IMG/VR virus record: IMGVR_UViG_3300046477_000087
Coordinates: 1 to 42,424 of that record
DNA length: 42,424 nucleotides
Reading direction: 5' to 3' (one strand)
From: a virus
Notes under the pieces: model-generated
The model's database searches: none
Seen by the model: only the letters and a program-made list of their open reading frames with translations
Told to the model about the DNA's origin: nothing
Made by a program: the position numbers and the translations under genes
Part shown: positions 3-42,424 of the stretch, piece by piece
Layout of the letters: every line of letters starts with the position of its first letter
How positions within the stretch are numbered: position 1 is the stretch's first letter

Positions 3-107
3 CGTGTCGGTCCCGCCGCCGATATCGAATTACGCAACATCACCAGCGTCTCCGAAGTCACCGAGGCGGCGGTAGCCGCATGGGAGGCCGAGCCGTGGTC
101 AAAGTAA
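3..107 (+). CDS. C-terminal end of a small DUF6948-like phage protein (5' end outside window)
   Basis: The third forward frame is open from the window edge to a TAA at 105-107 and gives a credible protein end (VGPAADIELRNITSV ... WEAEPWSK). It aligns without gaps to the C-terminus of the gene at 41823-42131: I count 17 identities in 34 positions, including the shared GP, LR-IT, AV-AWE and PW residues. It is therefore a diverged paralogue of that gene. It resembles a small phage family I recall as DUF6948, whose function is unknown. The next gene's GTG start lies inside this reading frame, so the two are probably translationally coupled. Only the last 34 residues are visible. Confidence 0.72.
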   Translation, partial: RVGPAADIELRNITSVSEVTEAAVAAWEAEPWSK

Positions 108-742
108 TCCGGGGCATCCTGCCTGATTCCGGCTCCGGCTCCGGCTACGGCGACGGCTACGGCTACGGCTCCGGCTACGGCGACGGCTACGGCTACGGCT
201 ACGGCTCCGGCTACGGCTACGGCTACGGCTACGGCTACGGCTACGGCGACGGCTCCGGCTCCGGCTCCGGCTACGGCTCCGGCTCCGGCTCCGGCTACGG
301 CTCCGGCTCCGGCTACGGCTACGGCTCCGGCTACGGCTACGGCGACGGCTCCGGCGACGGCGGCTACGGCTACGGCTCCGGCTCCGGCTCGAAAGAATAT
401 TGGCTGGCCACGATTGACGCTTTCGCGTCCAAGTGGCCGGACATTTTTAGACAGCGGCTTGCGAGCCTCAGAGATGCCGGAGCAACGATCGCCTTTTGGC
501 GATCGAGCCGCACGGGGCTTCCGTCCAACGGTGGCGGCGCAATCGAGGCCGCCGCGCCTGGGGTGGTGCACATCGCACCGGGGCCGATCGCGCTATGTAT
601 GCCTGGGACGCTTCACGCCACGCTATTGCCGACGAAATGGAGTGGCGAGCGGTGGTGGATCGTTGCGCTCACTGGCGAGGTTGTGGGAGATGAGGAAAAG
701 TACGGCGCGCTTACCCGTGAAATCTTGGGCGAGGCGATTTGA
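95..742 (+). CDS. Protein with long Gly-Tyr/Ser/Asp tract and a conserved C-terminal domain
   Basis: I chose GTG at 95 because a perfect GGGAGG lies at 82-87, seven bases upstream; an in-frame ATG at 80 lacks such a site and lies deeper in the upstream gene. The 215-residue product has a 10-residue head (VKVIRGILPD), then about 88 residues in which every second residue is glycine and the other is Tyr, Ser or Asp. A globular domain of about 115 residues follows, with the motifs EAGATIAFWRS-like (here DAGATIAFWRSS), PGTLHATLLPTKW, GERWWIVALTGEV and a GALTREILGE end. I recognise this C-terminal pattern from phage proteins of unknown function (possibly the DUF7666 group, recalled and not checked). 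It follows a DUF6948-like gene and precedes the excisionase/integrase pair. The tract resembles low-complexity Tyr/Gly sequences that self-associate, which is only an analogy. Confidence 0.8.
   Translation: MVKVIRGILPDSGSGSGYGDGYGYGSGYGDGYGYGYGSGYGYGYGYGYGYGDGSGSGSGYGSGSGSGYGSGSGYGYGSGYGYGDGSGDGGYGYGSGSGSKEYWLATIDAFASKWPDIFRQRLASLRDAGATIAFWRSSRTGLPSNGGGAIEAAAPGVVHIAPGPIALCMPGTLHATLLPTKWSGERWWIVALTGEVVGDEEKYGALTREILGEAI
128..391 (+). repeat. In-frame GGC-NNC hexanucleotide repeat tract, copy 1
   Basis: This is a 264-bp tract of six-base units made of a glycine codon (always GGC) and one of TAC, TCC or GAC. The alternating codons differ by one or two bases. The only break in the alternation is a GGC-GGC doublet near 360. 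Because units are 6 bp, gain or loss of units keeps the reading frame. A matching tract is at 42179-42424. Confidence 0.95.
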
Positions 743-760: not shown

Positions 761-1132
761 ATGACCGACCTTTTAACCATGGATGAAGTCGCTTGCCGCT
801 TGCACAAATCCAAGCGATGGCTGCAATATTTCCTGCGCGAGCGCCCAATCGGCCGGCTGGCCGGGAGGACCCGGCTGTTCACATCCATGGACCTAGCCCA
901 GATCATTCAGGAGCTCCCATGCCCATCCGTCTCATCCCGCCTCGTAAAGGCAAGAGCCCGAACTGGACGATCCGCGGCGCGTACCTCGGAACCCACGTTA
1001 ACCGAAGCTCTGGCACTGGCAAGCGAGCGGTCGCCATCCAAGTCCTCAAGAAGCTTGAGCGGCAGATCGAACGTGGTGAGCTTGCCAAGCCCGGCGAGCC
1101 GACCTTCGCGAGCGCAGCCGCGGCCTACATGA
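761..1132 (+). CDS. AlpA/MerR-type DNA-binding protein, probable excisionase
   Basis: The first 50 residues form a helix-turn-helix of the AlpA/excisionase kind: MTDLLTMDEVACRLHKSKRW is followed by a GRTRLF wing and a short DLAQII helix. After the CPS motif the protein becomes Ser/Arg/Ala-rich and looks disordered. The last 214 bp (919-1132) overlap the integrase in a different frame. I recall the same arrangement in related rhizobial phages, so the overlap is probably genuine, although the tail may be under weak constraint. Its position directly before int fits control of integration and excision. It could instead regulate transcription. Confidence 0.75.
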   Translation: MTDLLTMDEVACRLHKSKRWLQYFLRERPIGRLAGRTRLFTSMDLAQIIQELPCPSVSSRLVKARARTGRSAARTSEPTLTEALALASERSPSKSSRSLSGRSNVVSLPSPASRPSRAQPRPT

Positions 1133-1899
1133 AGGCGGGCGGCGAGCGGAAATATCTACGGCCATTATTGGAATATTTCGGTGAAACACCAATCGGCAGA
1201 ATCGATCAAGATGCAATCGACATGGCGGCAGCTTCTCTCTATCCAGACGGAAGTGGAGCGACTCGTAACCGATCTGTCCATACTCCGATATCAGCTATTC
1301 TCCGTCACGCTGGATATAGCCTCCGCCTTAGACGACCGAGGGGTTCCGCTGGCAACAAGCAAACCTCGTGGCTCTGGCCAGAGCAAGCCGAAGCCATCTT
1401 CGCGGAAGCCGAAAAGCTCGACAAGGAGTTCGCCGCGCTCCTGATCGTGCTCTGCTACACGGGCCTGCGGCTATCAGAGGCGCTCGGACTGAACTGGAAC
1501 GATATGAGGCTCCAAGATGGATTTGCCTATGTCCCAGATACGAAAAACGACGAGCCTAGAGCTGTCTTTTTACCGCCGGTGGCCGTGGCTGCGATTGGAA
1601 ACATGGGGGATCGATCTGCCGGGACCGTCTTCCGATTTCATAAAGGCGGGCATCTGTATTCTCTTTTACGGGCAACAGCGTTCAAAGCCAACGTCGAACT
1701 CCCCAAGCGAAGTGCCTTCCACCTCCTGCGACATACGTTCGCCACATGGATGCGCCGATACGCCGGACTCGACGAGAAGGGCCTGATGGCGATCGGGGCA
1801 TGGAAGGACCGCAAGTCGGTTGATCGATATTGCCACACTGTAGTCAGCGAGGAAGCCCGCAAGGCCGTGCTGCTGCCGACCGGGAGGAAGATGGGATGA
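919..1899 (+). CDS. int: Tyrosine-family site-specific integrase
   Basis: The 326-residue enzyme should recombine attP with the host attB. The catalytic set is visible: Arg184 in TGLRLSE, Lys209, His268 and Arg271 in HLLRHTFATW, Trp295 in GAWKD in the second His/Trp position, and the nucleophile Tyr304 in DRYCH. The N-terminal part (MPIRLIPPRKGKSPNW, with YLG and the KRAVA-LKKLE helix) is the arm-binding/core-binding region. The ATG at 919 is preferred over an in-frame ATG at 793, because the family begins with this MPIRL-PPRKGKSPN sequence and the 793 start would add residues antagonistic to the upstream gene. The stop overlaps the next ATG. attP lies about 400 bp downstream. Confidence 0.95.
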   Translation: MPIRLIPPRKGKSPNWTIRGAYLGTHVNRSSGTGKRAVAIQVLKKLERQIERGELAKPGEPTFASAAAAYMKAGGERKYLRPLLEYFGETPIGRIDQDAIDMAAASLYPDGSGATRNRSVHTPISAILRHAGYSLRLRRPRGSAGNKQTSWLWPEQAEAIFAEAEKLDKEFAALLIVLCYTGLRLSEALGLNWNDMRLQDGFAYVPDTKNDEPRAVFLPPVAVAAIGNMGDRSAGTVFRFHKGGHLYSLLRATAFKANVELPKRSAFHLLRHTFATWMRRYAGLDEKGLMAIGAWKDRKSVDRYCHTVVSEEARKAVLLPTGRKMG

Positions 1900-3024: not shown

Positions 3025-3291
3025 ATGAAGATAGCGATGTCTTTGACATGCATGCACGAGCACTGGGAATCTGAGGCAGCGGTCGCAGATGGAATGTGCC
3101 CAATCTGCTTGGCGGCCGAACGCGATGACCTGATGAAGGCCAACGCGCTGTTGCACGCGCTTATCGGCAACCGCGAGGCCGAGATCGAGCAACTGCGGGC
3201 GGCGCTCAAGGAGATCACGTCGGGAGGTTTGGGCTTGTTCGGATCAAAACAGGTTGCCCGCGCCGCCCTGGAGCAGAAAGCGGCGCCATGA
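3025..3291 (+). CDS. Hypothetical protein with zinc-knuckle-like Cys pair and coiled coil
   Basis: The product is 88 residues from ATG 3025, or 84 from ATG 3037. Cys and His residues cluster near the start (LTCMHEHWES, MCPICLAAER), giving a CxxC that could bind zinc. A long amphipathic helix follows (NREAEIEQLRAALKEI) that looks like a short coiled coil. I recall similar Cys-plus-coiled-coil small proteins in many tailed phages, without a known function. Its stop overlaps the next start (ATGA), so the two are probably coupled. Confidence 0.65.
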   Translation: MKIAMSLTCMHEHWESEAAVADGMCPICLAAERDDLMKANALLHALIGNREAEIEQLRAALKEITSGGLGLFGSKQVARAALEQKAAP

Positions 3292-4001: not shown

Positions 4002-4336
4002 TGGCACATATTGCAGAGCCAAACCAATAAAGTCGGATTGTCCCGCAGAATTTGCGTCCAGCCATTCGCCATTCCGTCGCAAATGCGTTCCTCGTCGTCG
4101 CCTTCGCGTAGGCATTGCGCCTTAAACACGGCATGATTTATTTCGTGAACTAGCGTATTGACGGCGCGCAATTTGGTCGGGATTTCTGCCGCCAGAGTAA
4201 TGCTATGCTGAATGTCTTCATAGACTCCCCATATCTCTTTGTCGTCGCGATCGACCGGAGCGATAATAACGTTGACATCGTAAACTCCGATTCTGATTCG
4301 TCTCGGCATCGAATCAAAATGATGGTCTTCGCTCAT
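3998..4336 (-). CDS. Small HExxH metallopeptidase-like protein
   Basis: This 112-residue protein carries HEINH at residues 64-68 inside LVHEINHAVFKA, the zinc-binding helix of zincin-type metallopeptidases. A downstream acidic stretch (REGDDEERICD) could supply the third ligand. The N-terminal half is a compact beta-rich region (IRIGVYDVNVIIAPVD). It resembles short phage-encoded Zn-peptidase-like proteins found among late accessory genes; the substrate is unknown. It follows endonuclease VII by three bases and overlaps the next gene's start. Confidence 0.7.
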   Translation of the reverse strand: MSEDHHFDSMPRRIRIGVYDVNVIIAPVDRDDKEIWGVYEDIQHSITLAAEIPTKLRAVNTLVHEINHAVFKAQCLREGDDEERICDGMANGWTQILRDNPTLLVWLCNMCQ

Positions 4337-4339
4337 CGG

Positions 4340-4891
4340 TCACACCTTAATGATGCCGCCGCGGAATTGCAGAAGGTAGTCCGCTGCCCTATGGACAATT
4401 GCCGGACTGTCCTGGAATTTTCCGAGAGCCGTGTTGCATGGAGAGCAGAGGAGGCCACGAAACTTATTCGTGACGTGGCAGTGATCGACCACAAGGCCGC
4501 CATGTCTAGCGCCCGATCTTCCTTCTATTTTGCAGATAGCGCATATGCCACCTTGAGCCTTGAAAGTCGCGCTTATGATGTCCTCATCAATATTGAGGCT
4601 GCGCAAAAATCTCTTCCGTACATTTTTCCTAGCAGCCTCTCTCACCTTTTCTGGGAACTTCTTTTTATAAGCCAGCTCTCGCGCTTTTGCTTTCTCTGGG
4701 TTTTTCCGTTTATAGTTCAATGACCATTGCCGGGACTTGTCTGGATTTTTAATCCTATAAGCTGTCGTCTGGGCAATGCGACATGTTTTACAAATACCAG
4801 AAGAATGACCGTCTCGCCCATCAAGATAAAAGCAATCCGCAGATTGCTCTTTACCGCATTTTGTACATTGTTTTATGCTAGCAGCAGCCAT
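4340..4891 (-). CDS. Recombination endonuclease VII family protein
   Basis: T4 endonuclease VII relatives resolve branched DNA before packaging. This 183-residue protein has an N-terminal zinc-finger-like Cys set (CTKCGKEQ, GICKTCR), a basic middle and the family core at the C-terminus: GGICAICK, LVVDHCHVTNKFRGLLCSPC, then NTALGKFQDSP. I chose ATG 4891 because TGGAGGT ends four bases upstream. An in-frame ATG at 4963 overlaps the previous gene but has no such site, and it would span a strong hairpin. Confidence 0.85.
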   Translation of the reverse strand: MAAASIKQCTKCGKEQSADCFYLDGRDGHSSGICKTCRIAQTTAYRIKNPDKSRQWSLNYKRKNPEKAKARELAYKKKFPEKVREAARKNVRKRFLRSLNIDEDIISATFKAQGGICAICKIEGRSGARHGGLVVDHCHVTNKFRGLLCSPCNTALGKFQDSPAIVHRAADYLLQFRGGIIKV

Positions 4892-38746: not shown

Positions 38747-39127
38747 ATGACCCGCTCAGAACGCATCGCGCCCGACACCGCCCGGCGACCGGCCACCACC
38801 GTCACCATCGAGCCGGTGATCCTCGCCCGGCATCGGTTCATTCTCGCCGTCAACGACCCGCAGAACCGGCCGACGCCATTCGGGGCCGATCCTAGCCCCG
38901 ACGCCATGGAGTTCCGCGCCTGCCAAGTCGAGGCCATCGGCATCGCCATGCGGGACTACCTGCTAGCGCTGGCCGAGGACTGCGCCGCGCACATGAGCCT
39001 GCCCGCCGATCCCCGCTCCACCATCATCGCCCACATGGACGACATGATGGGCGATTTCAGGGGCGCTCTCAACGTCGCGGTCGAGGACGCGCGGGACGAG
39101 GCTGGAACGCTGCGGAGGATAGGATGA
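38747..39127 (+). CDS. Hypothetical first gene of the recombination operon
   Basis: ATG 38747 follows GAGGGGAG; an in-frame ATG at 38687 lies within the operator region and is rejected. The 126-residue product has ILARHRFILAVNDPQNRPTP, then a helical part (EFRACQVEAIGIAMRDYLLA, PRSTIIAHMDDMMGDFRGAL) and a polar end. It is an unknown family. It overlaps the next small gene (ATGA). Confidence 0.65.
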   Translation: MTRSERIAPDTARRPATTVTIEPVILARHRFILAVNDPQNRPTPFGADPSPDAMEFRACQVEAIGIAMRDYLLALAEDCAAHMSLPADPRSTIIAHMDDMMGDFRGALNVAVEDARDEAGTLRRIG

Positions 39128-39216
39128 GCGAGCACATCATGGTCGCAACCATGATCGCGGGAGTGGCGTTCCTCGCCTTCGCATACATCTCAATCCTGAC
39201 AATGGTGATGCCATGA
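39124..39216 (+). CDS. 30-residue membrane peptide
   Basis: The frame overlaps the previous TGA (ATGA) and encodes MSEHIMVATMIAGVAFLAFA, then YISILTMVMP, a single hydrophobic segment. Its coupling and membrane character argue that it is translated. It could be a small superinfection or membrane-associated peptide. Confidence 0.55.
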   Translation: MSEHIMVATMIAGVAFLAFAYISILTMVMP

Positions 39217-39229
39217 TCTGTGCCTTCAA

Positions 39230-39421
39230 ATGACCTCCCGCCCCAAGCCCCTATACGCGAAGGCCCGCCAACTCCTTGACGAAAAGGTCAAGCAAGCTCG
39301 CGCTCGTGCCTTTTTGCATCCTCCGGTGATTTGGCTGACTCAGACAGACCTGAACGAGCGCATCAGCCGTGAGGTCGCGGCGCAGATGGCGCGGCGCGTA
39401 TTCGTCATGAGGGCGAAATGA
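39230..39421 (+). CDS. Small basic hypothetical protein (63 aa)
   Basis: The product (MTSRPKPLYAKARQLLDEKV, KQARARAFLHPPVIWLTQTD, LNERISREVAAQMARRV) is rich in Arg/Lys and Ala with predicted helices, and could bind nucleic acid. It overlaps the next gene (ATGA). There is no known family. Confidence 0.55.
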   Translation: MTSRPKPLYAKARQLLDEKVKQARARAFLHPPVIWLTQTDLNERISREVAAQMARRVFVMRAK

Positions 39422-39600
39422 CCATCATCGCATTCCCTTCCAAGCGGCCGGCGCCCAGCTTCCGAGAAATCTCCGCAGCCCGCGGCGATGTGGCGCCGGC
39501 CGCTTGGGACATGGGTGTCCTCGTAATCTGGATCGTCGTCGCGTTCGGGCTGGCGGTGTTTTGGACCAGCGTTGTGAAAGTAGCATGGAGGGCAATGTGA
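39418..39600 (+). CDS. Small single-TM protein (60 aa)
   Basis: It starts with ATG overlapping the previous stop. A polar N-terminus (IAFPSKRPAPSFREISAARG) precedes one membrane helix (MGVLVIWIVVAFGLAVFWTS) near the C-terminus. Its stop overlaps the start of the annealing-type protein gene. Its role is unknown. Confidence 0.6.
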   Translation: MTIIAFPSKRPAPSFREISAARGDVAPAAWDMGVLVIWIVVAFGLAVFWTSVVKVAWRAM

Positions 39601-40343
39601 TGAACCAAGTCGTGGCTATCAAGCAAAACAGCAGCGACATTATGGAATCCGTAATCGCAGCCGGGGATTTGTCCAAGTTGCCGTCAGCGGAGCGGGTTCG
39701 GTACTACAATGAGGTTTGTCGATCGATCGGTCTAAATCCGCTCGTGCAGCCGTTCTCCTATATCGTACTTAATGGCAAGTTGACGCTGTACGCCACGCGG
39801 ACATGCGCCGACCAGTTGCGGAAGATCAATGGCGTATCACTGGAAATCGTCTCGCGCCAGCAGGCGGACGGCATCTTGACTGTCCATGTCCGTGCCAAGA
39901 TGCCAGATGGCCGCTGCGACGAAGATTTCGGCTCCGTATCATTCCCCGACACACTTAAAGGCGAGGCGCGGGCCAATGCCGAGTTAAAGGCGGTGACCAA
40001 GGCCAAGCGCCGCGCGACGTTATCAATCTGCGGGCTAGGGTGGCTCGACGAAACCGAGATTGCGGATATCCCGTCGCGGGCCAAGTCCGAACCTCCGAAG
40101 CAAATCGCGGCTGAGCCCTACAACATCGAAACCGGCGAGATTTACGATGAATCGGGTCCGCCATCGGTCGCGCCGGCCCTGACGCCTGAGCAGATCGAAA
40201 CCATCCGCCAACTCATCGTGGAAACCGGATCGAACATCGCCCTGTTCTGCAAATATCTTCGCGTGGATCGGATCGAGAATATCGAGCCGGCTAGGTTTGC
40301 CTTCGCGGTTGATGCGCTTGAAGCCAAAAGGAAAAAATCATGA
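39600..40343 (+). CDS. Putative single-strand annealing recombinase (RecT/Beta-like)
   Basis: ATG 39600 has GGAGG upstream and overlaps the previous stop; an in-frame ATG at 39504 is inside the previous gene. The 247-residue protein has RVRYYNEVCRSIGLNPLVQP, FSYIVLNGKLTLYATRTCAD, QLRKINGVSLEIVS, then ELKAVTKAKRRATLSICGLG and LDETEI. The C...GLNP...Y...KLTLYAT...QLR pattern recalls the Redbeta/RecT fold. The gene immediately after encodes a YqaJ exonuclease, the usual partner. The exact family is not one I can name, so the assignment rests on context and motif likeness. Confidence 0.68.
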   Translation: MNQVVAIKQNSSDIMESVIAAGDLSKLPSAERVRYYNEVCRSIGLNPLVQPFSYIVLNGKLTLYATRTCADQLRKINGVSLEIVSRQQADGILTVHVRAKMPDGRCDEDFGSVSFPDTLKGEARANAELKAVTKAKRRATLSICGLGWLDETEIADIPSRAKSEPPKQIAAEPYNIETGEIYDESGPPSVAPALTPEQIETIRQLIVETGSNIALFCKYLRVDRIENIEPARFAFAVDALEAKRKKS

Positions 40344-40996
40344 GCGGCGAAATCATACAGGGATCGGCCGAATGGAAGTCGCAGCGGCTCGGCCGCGTCA
40401 CCGCCTCTCGCGTGTCCGATGTGGTCGCCAAGACCAAGACGGGTTGGAGTGCATTGCGCGCCAACTACATGGCGCAATTAATTGCCGAGCGCCTGACCGG
40501 AGAAGTGCAGGAATCCTACACGAACGCCGCGATGCAATGGGGAAGCGACACCGAAGGACGCGCCCGCGAGGCTTATCAGTTTCGCATCGACGCCGAAGTG
40601 CAGCCGGCTGGCTTCGTCAACCATCCAACAATCATCATGAGCGGAGCGAGCCCGGACGGCTATGTGGGCGACCTGGGCCTAGTCGAAATTAAGTGCCCGA
40701 ATACGGCCACGCACATTGAAACGCTGATCGATCAGTCTGTCCCGAGCAAATATCTCACGCAGATGCAATGGCAGATGGCGTGTACCGGCAGAAAATGGTG
40801 CGACTTTGTTTCATTCGATCCTCGAATGCCGGAATCTATGCGGTTCATGATGTCCCGCGTCTACCGTGACGACGTTTTGATTGCGACGCTGGAAAACAAC
40901 GTCCGCGACTTCCTGGCCGAACTCGACGCCAAGATCGGAGCGCTCAATAAGGGATTCAAGTTGCGTGAGCCGGCGAACATGATGGCGGGAGGGTGA
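40340..40996 (+). CDS. YqaJ/lambda-type 5'-3' exonuclease
   Basis: The 218-residue protein has the YqaJ pattern: QGSAEWKSQRLGRVTASRVS, then NAAMQWGSDTEGRAREAYQF (Glu), MSGASPDGYVGDLGLVEIKC (Asp and Glu-x-Lys), KYLTQMQWQMACTGRKW (Gln) and RDFLAELDAKIGALN. It degrades one strand of duplex DNA to expose single strands for the annealing protein. The start overlaps the previous gene (ATGA), consistent with an exonuclease-annealing pair. Confidence 0.92.
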   Translation: MSGEIIQGSAEWKSQRLGRVTASRVSDVVAKTKTGWSALRANYMAQLIAERLTGEVQESYTNAAMQWGSDTEGRAREAYQFRIDAEVQPAGFVNHPTIIMSGASPDGYVGDLGLVEIKCPNTATHIETLIDQSVPSKYLTQMQWQMACTGRKWCDFVSFDPRMPESMRFMMSRVYRDDVLIATLENNVRDFLAELDAKIGALNKGFKLREPANMMAGG

Positions 40997-40997
40997 C

Positions 40998-41396
40998 GTG
41001 AGCCGAGCCCTGATAACACTGCATGGCGCCGCCGACCGCGAGCGGGCGCGCGCCTTACTGGCAAAGGCTCCGACCGGGACGCGGATTGAGTTCAAGGCCG
41101 CCAAGCGCACGTTGGATCAAAACTCGCGCATGTGGGCGATGTTGACTGAGGTCGCGCGCCAAGTTGATTGGCACGGCATGAAGCTGCGTCCCGACGACTG
41201 GAAACTCATTTTCATGGACGGACTCAAACGCGAATTGCGTTTGGTGCCGAACATAGAAGGCAACGGATTCGTGAACCTGGGCCGATCATCGTCTGACCTG
41301 ACAAAAGCGGAAATGTCGGACCTGATTGAACTGATATTTCAGTTTGGCTCAAACCACGACGTAAAATTCTGTGACCCGATGGAGCAGGCCGCATGA
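40998..41396 (+). CDS. ninB: NinB-like recombination protein
   Basis: The 132-residue product begins at GTG 40998, one base after the YqaJ stop. It contains RIEFKAAKRTLDQNSRMWAM, LTEVARQVDWHGMKLRPDDW and LIELIFQFGSNHDV, the core of NinB (Orf) proteins. NinB aids phage recombination by binding single-stranded DNA, probably with SSB. Its place between exonuclease and HNH genes is typical. Confidence 0.88.
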   Translation: MSRALITLHGAADRERARALLAKAPTGTRIEFKAAKRTLDQNSRMWAMLTEVARQVDWHGMKLRPDDWKLIFMDGLKRELRLVPNIEGNGFVNLGRSSSDLTKAEMSDLIELIFQFGSNHDVKFCDPMEQAA

Positions 41397-41770
41397 GTCG
41401 TGATTTGCCAGAGTGGATTGCCAAGGATGACAACGAGGCTGTTCCCCGTCGCGTGCGGATTCGCATCTTCATCCTAGCCGATGGCCGCTGCGGGTGCTGT
41501 TCACGGCGCCTCCGACCCGGAGACGCCTGGATATGTGACCACAAAATCGCGCTCATCAACGGCGGCAAGAACCAGGAATCTAACCTGCAAGTCCTCTGCG
41601 ATTGGTGCGACCGTAAGGTAAAGACACCGGCCGATGTCGCTGAGAAGTCCGTAGCCGCCCGCAAGCGCGCGGCTCATATCGGTATCAAGCGCAGATCGCC
41701 CAAGCCGTTGCCGGGAACGAAAGCGAGCGGCATCAGAAAGCGAATGAACGGCGCGGTCGAGCGCTGGTGA
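41393..41770 (+). CDS. HNH endonuclease-like protein
   Basis: The 125-residue protein has IFILADGRCGCCSRRLRPGD, WICDHKIALINGGKNQESNL and QVLCDWCDRKVKTPADV. The Cys33-Cys36 region, Asp49-His50 and Asn60 follow the HNH layout, with zinc-binding Cys69 and Cys72. The usual final H is an Asp (CDRK), so activity is uncertain. It is coupled to ninB by overlap (ATGA). A 52-bp spacer follows. Confidence 0.85.
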   Translation: MSRDLPEWIAKDDNEAVPRRVRIRIFILADGRCGCCSRRLRPGDAWICDHKIALINGGKNQESNLQVLCDWCDRKVKTPADVAEKSVAARKRAAHIGIKRRSPKPLPGTKASGIRKRMNGAVERW

Positions 41771-41822
41771 AAGAGCTGGACTTCCGGCGCCTCGCGGATT
41801 TTCAGGGGCAGGAGAAACGAAG

Positions 41823-42131
41823 ATGATCAACCATCCCAATCGAAAGAAGCCGACCGGCGAACGCGCCGTCTTGGTTACCACGGCGCATAAGGGCGTCTTT
41901 TTCGGATATGCCACTAATACGGACGGCGCGACGATCAGCCTCCGCGCGGCTAGGAACTGCATTTATTGGTCGAGCGATGTGAAGGGGTTCATCGGTCTTG
42001 CCGCGACCGGCCCCAGCAATAATTGCAAAATAGGCCCATCGGCTAATATCACGCTTCGCGATATCACTTGCGTTGCAGAGTGCGACCCGAAAGCCGTCCA
42101 GGCGTGGGAATCTGCGCCCTGGGCTCGATGA
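41823..42131 (+). CDS. DUF6948-like small conserved protein, copy at right end
   Basis: The 102-residue product has RAVLVTTAHKGVFFGYATNT, ARNCIYWSSDVKGFIGLAAT and a C-terminus KIGPSANITLRDITCV, AVQAWESAPWAR that pairs with the fragment at 3-107. VFFG...CIYWSSDV-G..GLAATGP is the pattern I recall for DUF6948, a phage family of unknown function. The stop overlaps the start of the Gly-rich protein gene (ATGA), so the two should be made in a fixed ratio. Confidence 0.82.
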   Translation: MINHPNRKKPTGERAVLVTTAHKGVFFGYATNTDGATISLRAARNCIYWSSDVKGFIGLAATGPSNNCKIGPSANITLRDITCVAECDPKAVQAWESAPWAR

Positions 42132-42424
42132 CAATGGAAACAATAACTCTCCTGCAAGGCGAGCAGCCGAGTTGGATTAGCGGCTACGGCGACGGCTCCG
42201 GCTACGGCTCCCGCTACGGCTACGGCGACGGCTCCGGCGACGGCTACGGTTACGGCTCCGGCGACGGCTACGGCTACGGCTACGGCTACGGCGACGGCGA
42301 CGGCTACGGCTACGGCGACGGCGACGGCTCCGGCTACGGCTACGGCGACGGCGACGGCGACGGCTCCGGCTACGGCGACGGCTCCGGCTACGGCTCCGGC
42401 TCCGGCTCCGGCTACGGCTCCGGC
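42128..42424 (+). CDS. Second Gly-Tyr/Ser/Asp tract protein, cut by window end
   Basis: ATG 42128 overlaps the previous TGA (ATGA). The head (MTMETITLLQGEQPSWI) differs from copy 1 (MVKVIRGILPD). The tract then runs to the window edge, in frame at the final GGC (99 codons visible). A C-terminal domain like that of copy 1 would be expected beyond the window but is not seen here. One Arg (CGC) replaces glycine early in the tract, and one glycine is GGT instead of GGC. Confidence 0.85.
   Translation, partial: MTMETITLLQGEQPSWISGYGDGSGYGSRYGYGDGSGDGYGYGSGDGYGYGYGYGDGDGYGYGDGDGSGYGYGDGDGDGSGYGDGSGYGSGSGSGYGSG
42179..42424 (+). repeat. In-frame GGC-NNC hexanucleotide repeat tract, copy 2
   Basis: At least 246 bp of alternating glycine and TAC, TCC or GAC codons follow an AGC at 42179 and run into the window end. 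The tract is richer in GAC (Asp) than copy 1. The break of the sequence in such a tract is what an assembler would produce at a repeat it cannot span. Confidence 0.93.

Follow-up and report, generated by a model that had tools for sequence, protein, structure and literature searches.

A phage gene pair of a DUF6948 protein with a predicted Sm-like fold and a hypervariable Gly-[Tyr/Ser/Asp] tract protein

Results

We find, with near certainty, that a DUF6948 gene and a gene encoding a low-complexity tract of Gly-X dipeptides form a conserved, overlapping two-gene module of phages. An adjacent tract gene was present in 225 of the 227 informative contigs drawn from three divergent DUF6948 groups, counted as contigs and not as de-replicated lineages. 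Control scans of the same contigs found tracts in only 4/146 upstream and 2/108 more distant downstream stretches.

The window and its gene context

The stretch of DNA analysed here, called the window, is the whole IMG/VR record IMGVR_UViG_3300046477_000087, which is 42,424 bases long and classed as linear. The encoded phage is temperate, and its gene products include an integrase along with portal, major head, ejection-type and terminase proteins. The operon at its right end runs from a Rad52-like annealing protein through a YqaJ exonuclease, NinB/Orf and an HNH endonuclease to DUF6948 and the tract gene (Table 1). The first-pass annotation had described a DUF6948-like gene overlapping a tract gene at this end, and both the PF22253 profile match and the position of the tract ORF, which begins over the DUF6948 stop codon and runs off the contig, confirm it. 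The same annotation had seen, at the left end, the C-terminus of a diverged DUF6948 gene overlapping the GTG start of another tract gene, and this too holds. The left and right DUF6948 tails align with a score of 99, the highest score among 2000 shuffles being 49, and the best other relatives of the left tail reach 24/34 identity. An exact search of IMG/VR for the left tip gave no match elsewhere and no source contig. TrAA12 matches of the tract were discarded as low-complexity matches below the cutoff.

Table 1. Features of the two window ends that concern the gene pair and its neighbours.
Feature	Position	Strand	Basis or remark
Last 34 codons of a second, diverged DUF6948 (most likely a foreign or variant tip)	3..107 (stop 105-107)	+	17/34 identity to right copy
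Left tract gene, GTG start: head, tract, C-terminal domain	95..742	+	13-nt overlap with DUF6948 stop
Hexanucleotide-repeat tract GGC-(TAC/TCC/GAC) = Gly-[Y/S/D]	about 131..390	+	sequence
C-terminal domain, 116 aa, predicted DUF7666-like fold, weak ADP-ribosyltransferase resemblance	389..742 (residues to 739)	+	model pLDDT 93.7
Tyrosine integrase, 3' of left tract gene (context)	793..1899	+	PF00589 E 2.8e-20
Rad52/22-like single-strand annealing protein, start of the operon ending with the pair	39504..40343	+	PF04098 E 7e-4, 19.9 bits vs cutoff 20.3
YqaJ exonuclease (context)	40340..40996	+	PF09588 E 2.7e-28
NinB/Orf recombination mediator (context)	40998..41396	+	PF05772 E 2.1e-34
HNH endonuclease (context)	41393..41770	+	PF01844 E 9e-7
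DUF6948 gene, 102 aa, first of the pair, predicted Sm/LSm-like small β-barrel	41823..42131	+	PF22253 E 3.2e-23, 82.1 bits vs cutoff 27
Tract gene, 5' part: head MTMETITLLQGEQPSWIS, then Gly-[Y/S/D] repeats, cut by contig end	42128..42424	+	head also in L002-L004 and L010

Because recombination genes lay near the pair at few loci (14/80, 6/80 and 6/71 in the three groups, by a low-sensitivity search), the recombination setting of the window is not general. Elsewhere in the window, a MUG113/T5orf172-type (GIY-YIG-like) protein is encoded at 1830-2267, directly 3' of the integrase. Positions 2514-2711 and 3044-3272 are 92-95% identical to sequence just 5' of the cassette in a related contig, L003, and another contig, L008, is similar; the window phage, L003 and L008 have blocks in common in a differing gene order.

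Pairing of DUF6948 with tract genes

In the DUF6948 group to which the window belongs, a tract lay directly downstream in 77 of the best 80 contigs (77/78 informative); of the other three, two run out immediately and the third carries an HNH-like gene in that place. A second group, retrieved with queries from cultivated phages and a spring-water genome that are about 45% identical to each other, had a tract downstream in 80/80 contigs, usually encoding a tract-only protein. The third, gut/rumen group, retrieved with queries from gut phages, had one in 67/69 informative contigs, or 68/69 when a tract lying upstream in reversed order is counted, and here most partners join the tract to another domain of about 154 aa. 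Three partner architectures are therefore seen, namely tract only, tract with a DUF7666/ADP-ribosyltransferase (ART)-like domain (the type of the window) and tract with the unrelated domain of about 154 aa, and the DUF6948 groups track them.

Searches in the opposite direction agree. DUF6948 was found upstream of the window-type C-terminal domain in 61/65 informative contigs and with the gut-type domain in 49/50, the exception being contig L412, described below. The first-pass annotation had proposed a coupled two-component unit kept by selection, and the adjacency counts, set against the controls and joined by these reciprocal counts, support it strongly: the small protein and the tract protein are neighbours across phages, and a DUF6948 occurring mostly without a tract protein was not seen. 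The tract gene starts before DUF6948 has ended, by 13 nt in 101/147 cases and by 4, 16 or 19 nt in most of the rest, a geometry that points to translational coupling of the two genes. Fused forms also indicate that the two belong together, since three contigs (L002-L004) carry an in-frame tract-DUF6948 ORF, and phrog_18306 is matched by the tract at 46-133 (weakly, E 0.025) and by DUF6948 at 154-236.

One cassette or two in the window

With a partial DUF6948 and a tract at each end, the window had been described as carrying a duplicated cassette. This is probably wrong; judged from the sequences compared, the window probably holds one cassette that the assembly has cut in its repeat. Contig L010 (IMGVR_UViG_3300046780_000036, 4211 nt) is 96.85% identical to window 39000-42180 over 3239 nt. 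Beyond the match to the right end it continues with the right-type head and a tract and then with a C-terminal domain that matches window 391-642, part of the left copy, at 100% identity over 252 nt. The right-type head METITLLQGEQPS is present in all four other contigs found with the C-terminal domain of the window, and the head MTMETITLLQGEQPSWIS continues into the C-terminal domain in L002-L004 as well as in L010. Five further contigs resemble the window in that one end carries the C-terminal domain and the opposite end DUF6948; of the three inspected, two have a left end that lies wholly inside the tract, without a second head, and the third, IMGVR_UViG_3300045257_000068, has the same head at both ends. 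DUF6948 is present in 30/32 records with the C-terminal domain, as a single copy in 29/30. Contig ends cluster at the tract: 15/80 C-terminal-domain loci lack an upstream DUF6948 solely through the contig end, and in the Rhodopseudomonas infernalis genome the break between two contigs falls at the tract.

Because L010 joins the right end to the left C-terminal domain, relatives mostly have one copy and contigs break at the tract, we favour a single cassette. The simplest reading, and the most likely, is that the genome is circular or concatemeric and holds a single cassette, which the assembler split within the repeat, and that positions 1 to about 130 of the window are a foreign or strain-variant tip. 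The duplication had also been taken as a sign of selection, for which it offers no support, as the two "copies" are most simply the halves of one gene split at the repeat.

Less probably, the phage has two tandem cassettes, DUF6948-A/tract-A at the right followed by DUF6948-B/tract-B/C-terminal domain at the left, with a missing stretch between them. Tandem repeats would break assemblies in the same way, and real tandems exist, if rarely. In L033 a second DUF6948 starts directly after the C-terminal domain (near 4296-4386), making a genuine tandem cassette that the end of the contig truncates; L223 reads tract-DUF6948-tract with near-identical heads; and L002-L004 carry an extra tract before DUF6948 (for example L003:4172-4800, with the same head and a Cys-rich end, MCPCGHHEGYHNDKGVCLLSRNCRCKG, in frame into DUF6948 just 5' of the normal cassette). 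On the other hand, L010, 97% identical to the right end, goes straight into the left C-terminal domain, nearly all DUF6948 records have one copy, and the contig ends of IMGVR_UViG_3300045257_000068 share one head: the same DUF6948 tail and head stand at both of its ends, followed by tracts that differ. Because tandem copies do occur in other contigs, a true tandem in the window keeps about a quarter of the probability.

Composition and repeat changes of the tract

The tract was present in 82/83 non-redundant proteins with the C-terminal domain. We counted its composition in frame with that domain (n = 2535 dipeptides), which is safer than the automatic survey, where the T and P counts probably come in part from GGG-type repeats read one base off. 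In window-type tracts X is Tyr in 40%, Ser in 32% and Asp in 25% of dipeptides, together 97%; in the other two groups these residues make up 84-90% (S 37-41%, Y 27%, D 20-22%) and codon endings differ. The Gly codon likewise varies by phage: most use GGC, about a dozen use GGG exclusively or almost so, and one uses GGT. Ala accounts for 21/2535 (0.8%), though its codon GCC can be reached from either TCC or GAC in a single step. The 64 complete window-type tracts are acidic, with one K/R against 553 D/E, and have a median of 13 Tyr, with Gly at every second position. As S/Y/D are kept while codons differ, Ala is scarce and basic residues are nearly absent, we conclude that selection acts on the tract protein.

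Tract length ranges from 5 to 96 units. Six independent contig pairs, each 100% identical in DUF6948 and in the 300 nt that follow the tract, differ in length by 6, 6, 54, 54, 78 and 108 bases; all six differences are multiples of six and keep the frame, although some could be assembly errors. A different change was seen between L299 and L300 (IMGVR_UViG_2548877171_000001 and _000005), which come from the same source and have identical DUF6948 genes: one tract leaves the frame and the C-terminal domain is lost, which may reflect a frameshift, a phase switch or a sequencing error.

Predicted structures

The small gene of the window is a member of the Pfam family DUF6948 (PF22253) by score, and the profile was matched by 72/72 diverse relatives; the texts found on the family give neither a function nor a partnership with a tract gene. 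An AlphaFold model of DUF6948 (pLDDT 83.7, moderate confidence) was compared with known structures. Nearly all of the 50 PDB matches listed by Foldseek were Sm or LSm proteins (prob 0.98-1.00, best E 5e-3), and structural alignment gave Z 7.4 for chain A of S. pombe Lsm1-7, the top value against Sm proteins and below 8, and Z 7.3 for PDB 3by7, an Sm-like protein from an uncultured source. On the strength of this model, DUF6948 probably has an Sm-like fold. By sequence, none of the 72 relatives had a significant Sm profile match (SM-ATX reached E 0.035, short of significance, in two of them), and sequence searches of the PDB, Sm entries included, found no relatives. The predicted fold is thus common to DUF6948 and the Sm/LSm/Hfq proteins, from which DUF6948 differs in the lack of a sequence-level match and in its pairing with a low-complexity gene.

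For the C-terminal domain of the window, the best matches of the model in BFVD include several DUF7666 proteins (prob 1.00, TMq 0.53-0.59), which are phage and giant virus proteins, many of them named ankyrin or pentapeptide repeat proteins. The DUF7666 profile (PF24703) did not match the window's domain and matched 4/29 relatives weakly (best E 0.0087). Because it falls below the family cutoff by sequence, we call the domain DUF7666-like and not a member, despite the shared predicted fold; it also lies C-terminal, not N-terminal, of the repeat. Its PDB matches are weak and mostly to ADP-ribosyltransferases or ART-like proteins (Arr with Z 6.2, PARPs and TreTu; Z 6.2 to 4.1 by VIA-align), with none significant in Foldseek, and PHROGs and NCBIfam gave no match. 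The second C-terminal domain, of about 154 aa, had no significant Pfam or PDB match, the best being a HEPN toxin at E 0.14.

One contig, L412 (IMGVR_UViG_3300007961_000082), has an ORF from 2635 that combines a true DUF7666 domain (98 bits), a Gly-X tract like those of the pairs and a gut-type C-terminal domain; no DUF6948 was found nearby. The fusion indicates that domains are exchanged around the tract, and it ties DUF7666 to Gly-X tracts independently.

Discussion

An acidic Gly/Ser/Tyr/Asp chain with regular Tyr residues, encoded beside a predicted Sm-like barrel, suggests a nucleic-acid-binding protein acting with a self-associating scaffold. By its sequence, the tract has the low complexity and the regularly spaced aromatic stickers of phase-separating low-complexity proteins. 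We therefore propose, tentatively, that the Sm-like small β-barrel of DUF6948 would bind RNA or single-stranded DNA and would be co-translated with its tract partner, an acidic low-complexity chain in which Tyr "stickers" are set in Gly/Ser/Asp spacers. This chain may self-associate into a condensate or a fibre-like scaffold, and early in infection the two proteins would jointly assemble such a scaffold on the nucleic acid of the phage. Since the partners in a whole group are tract-only, the shared functional part must be the tract and not a C-terminal enzyme, while optional C-terminal domains would add further activities. The hexanucleotide repeat would permit tract length to change by whole dipeptides with the frame kept. 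The explanation as a whole, comprising the module, a single cassette in the window and the Sm-like/scaffold mechanism, is one to which we give slightly less than even confidence. A bolder idea, which we consider unlikely, is that the pair represents an unrecognised class of phage system in which Sm-like and hypervariable Tyr-rich low-complexity proteins might build a nucleic-acid condensate, the counterpart of eukaryotic RNP granules, with exchangeable effectors.

Could the pair instead be a toxin-antitoxin or anti-defence module, with the tract protein and its exchangeable C-terminal domains as effector and DUF6948 as constant partner? Two small genes that overlap, mostly by 13 nt, would suit this, as would exchangeable domains of which one weakly resembles ADP-ribosyltransferases and the toxin TreTu, and DUF6948 groups that follow the partner architecture. 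However, the tract-only form, which is the rule in a group of 80, has no effector domain, PADLOC returned no match, and the pair is rare in bacterial genomes (3/289 and 1/398), so that we judge such a function improbable.

We give equally little weight to a role of the tract as DNA or mRNA, either as a repeat bound by the Sm-like protein or as a recombination hot spot that swaps C-terminal modules. The near-pure hexanucleotide repeats that change by whole units, the differing modules after the same kind of tract and the predicted Sm fold of the neighbour are consistent with it, but the codons for Gly and X vary by phage while G-S/Y/D is kept, Ala and basic residues are nearly absent, and L412 has a DUF7666-tract-domain protein on a contig without DUF6948. 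Least probable is a structural or fibrous role of the tract protein in the virion or in a coat on the host surface, where it would form silk-like Gly-X sheets and DUF6948 would serve as chaperone or anchor: strict Gly-X alternation with Ser or Tyr at X does recall silk fibroin, but in the window the pair belongs to an early/recombination operon, and several records have it close to RusA/SSB, Erf/SSB or RecE/Bet genes, not among virion genes.

The scaffold proposal can be set beside two known kinds of sequence. FUS-type [G/S]Y[G/S] low-complexity domains place Tyr in Gly/Ser spacers, as the tract does; the tract differs in its strict Gly-X dipeptides, its richness in Asp, the absence of Gln and Arg, its hypervariable DNA repeat and its occurrence in phages. 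In the (GX)n repeats of Bombyx silk fibroin, Gly alternates strictly with Ser/Tyr and Ala. The tract has this alternation in common, with Asp and not Ala as the third main residue, a short length and a place in bacterial viruses.

The pairing appears to be undescribed. In open-access full text, we found no paper naming DUF6948 or DUF7666 and nothing relevant on phage Sm-like proteins, glycine-tract phage proteins or such a pair. As a system, the pair fits no known kind that we found; its parts are known, DUF6948 as a catalogued family and the Sm-like fold. Across many environments, hundreds of phage contigs thus link two domains of unknown function; the hosts of the phages and prophages are Pseudomonadota, Chlorobi and Bacillota. 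The tract breaks short-read assemblies, and its repeat nature makes the gene easy to overlook or to annotate in a wrong frame. If the Sm-like/low-complexity reading is true, the pair would offer a small, tractable bacterial system for phage RNP-like condensates; even otherwise, the near-absolute pairing makes its function directly testable in cultivated phages such as Iodobacter PhiPLPE and Vibrio IKEMa6-1.

Reference phages and genomes carrying the pair

When the window's DUF6948 and its C-terminal domain were searched for in reference phages by tblastn, neither gave a match, but a more distant DUF6948 query did. This query was a phage sequence checked against Pfam, and the conclusions rest on the records retrieved. 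The pair is present in Pectobacterium phage Taid, Podoviridae MW202898, Vibrio phage IKEMa6-1 and two human gut phages. It is also present in Iodobacter phage PhiPLPE, where the tract gene is unannotated, and in Chlorobiaceae phage CV-1-33, where the tract is annotated in the wrong frame as MAMALA. In a Monoglobus record the pair adjoins RusA and SSB genes.

Complete Neisseria gonorrhoeae records carry the pair as well, with three DUF6948 places per record, of which one was inspected. Two of these records, NZ_CP119142.1 and NZ_CP119140.1, are filed as plasmids of about 2.17 Mb, and their DUF6948 places are unannotated in the table of the collection. At the place inspected the partner is tract-only, with X mainly N/S/Y/D. 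In MT192033.1 (gene 25, QOE32032.1) and MW202478.1 (UOF77468.1), the annotation of the repeat gene follows a wrong frame and reads MAMALAMA; in the latter record the tract is found upstream of DUF6948.
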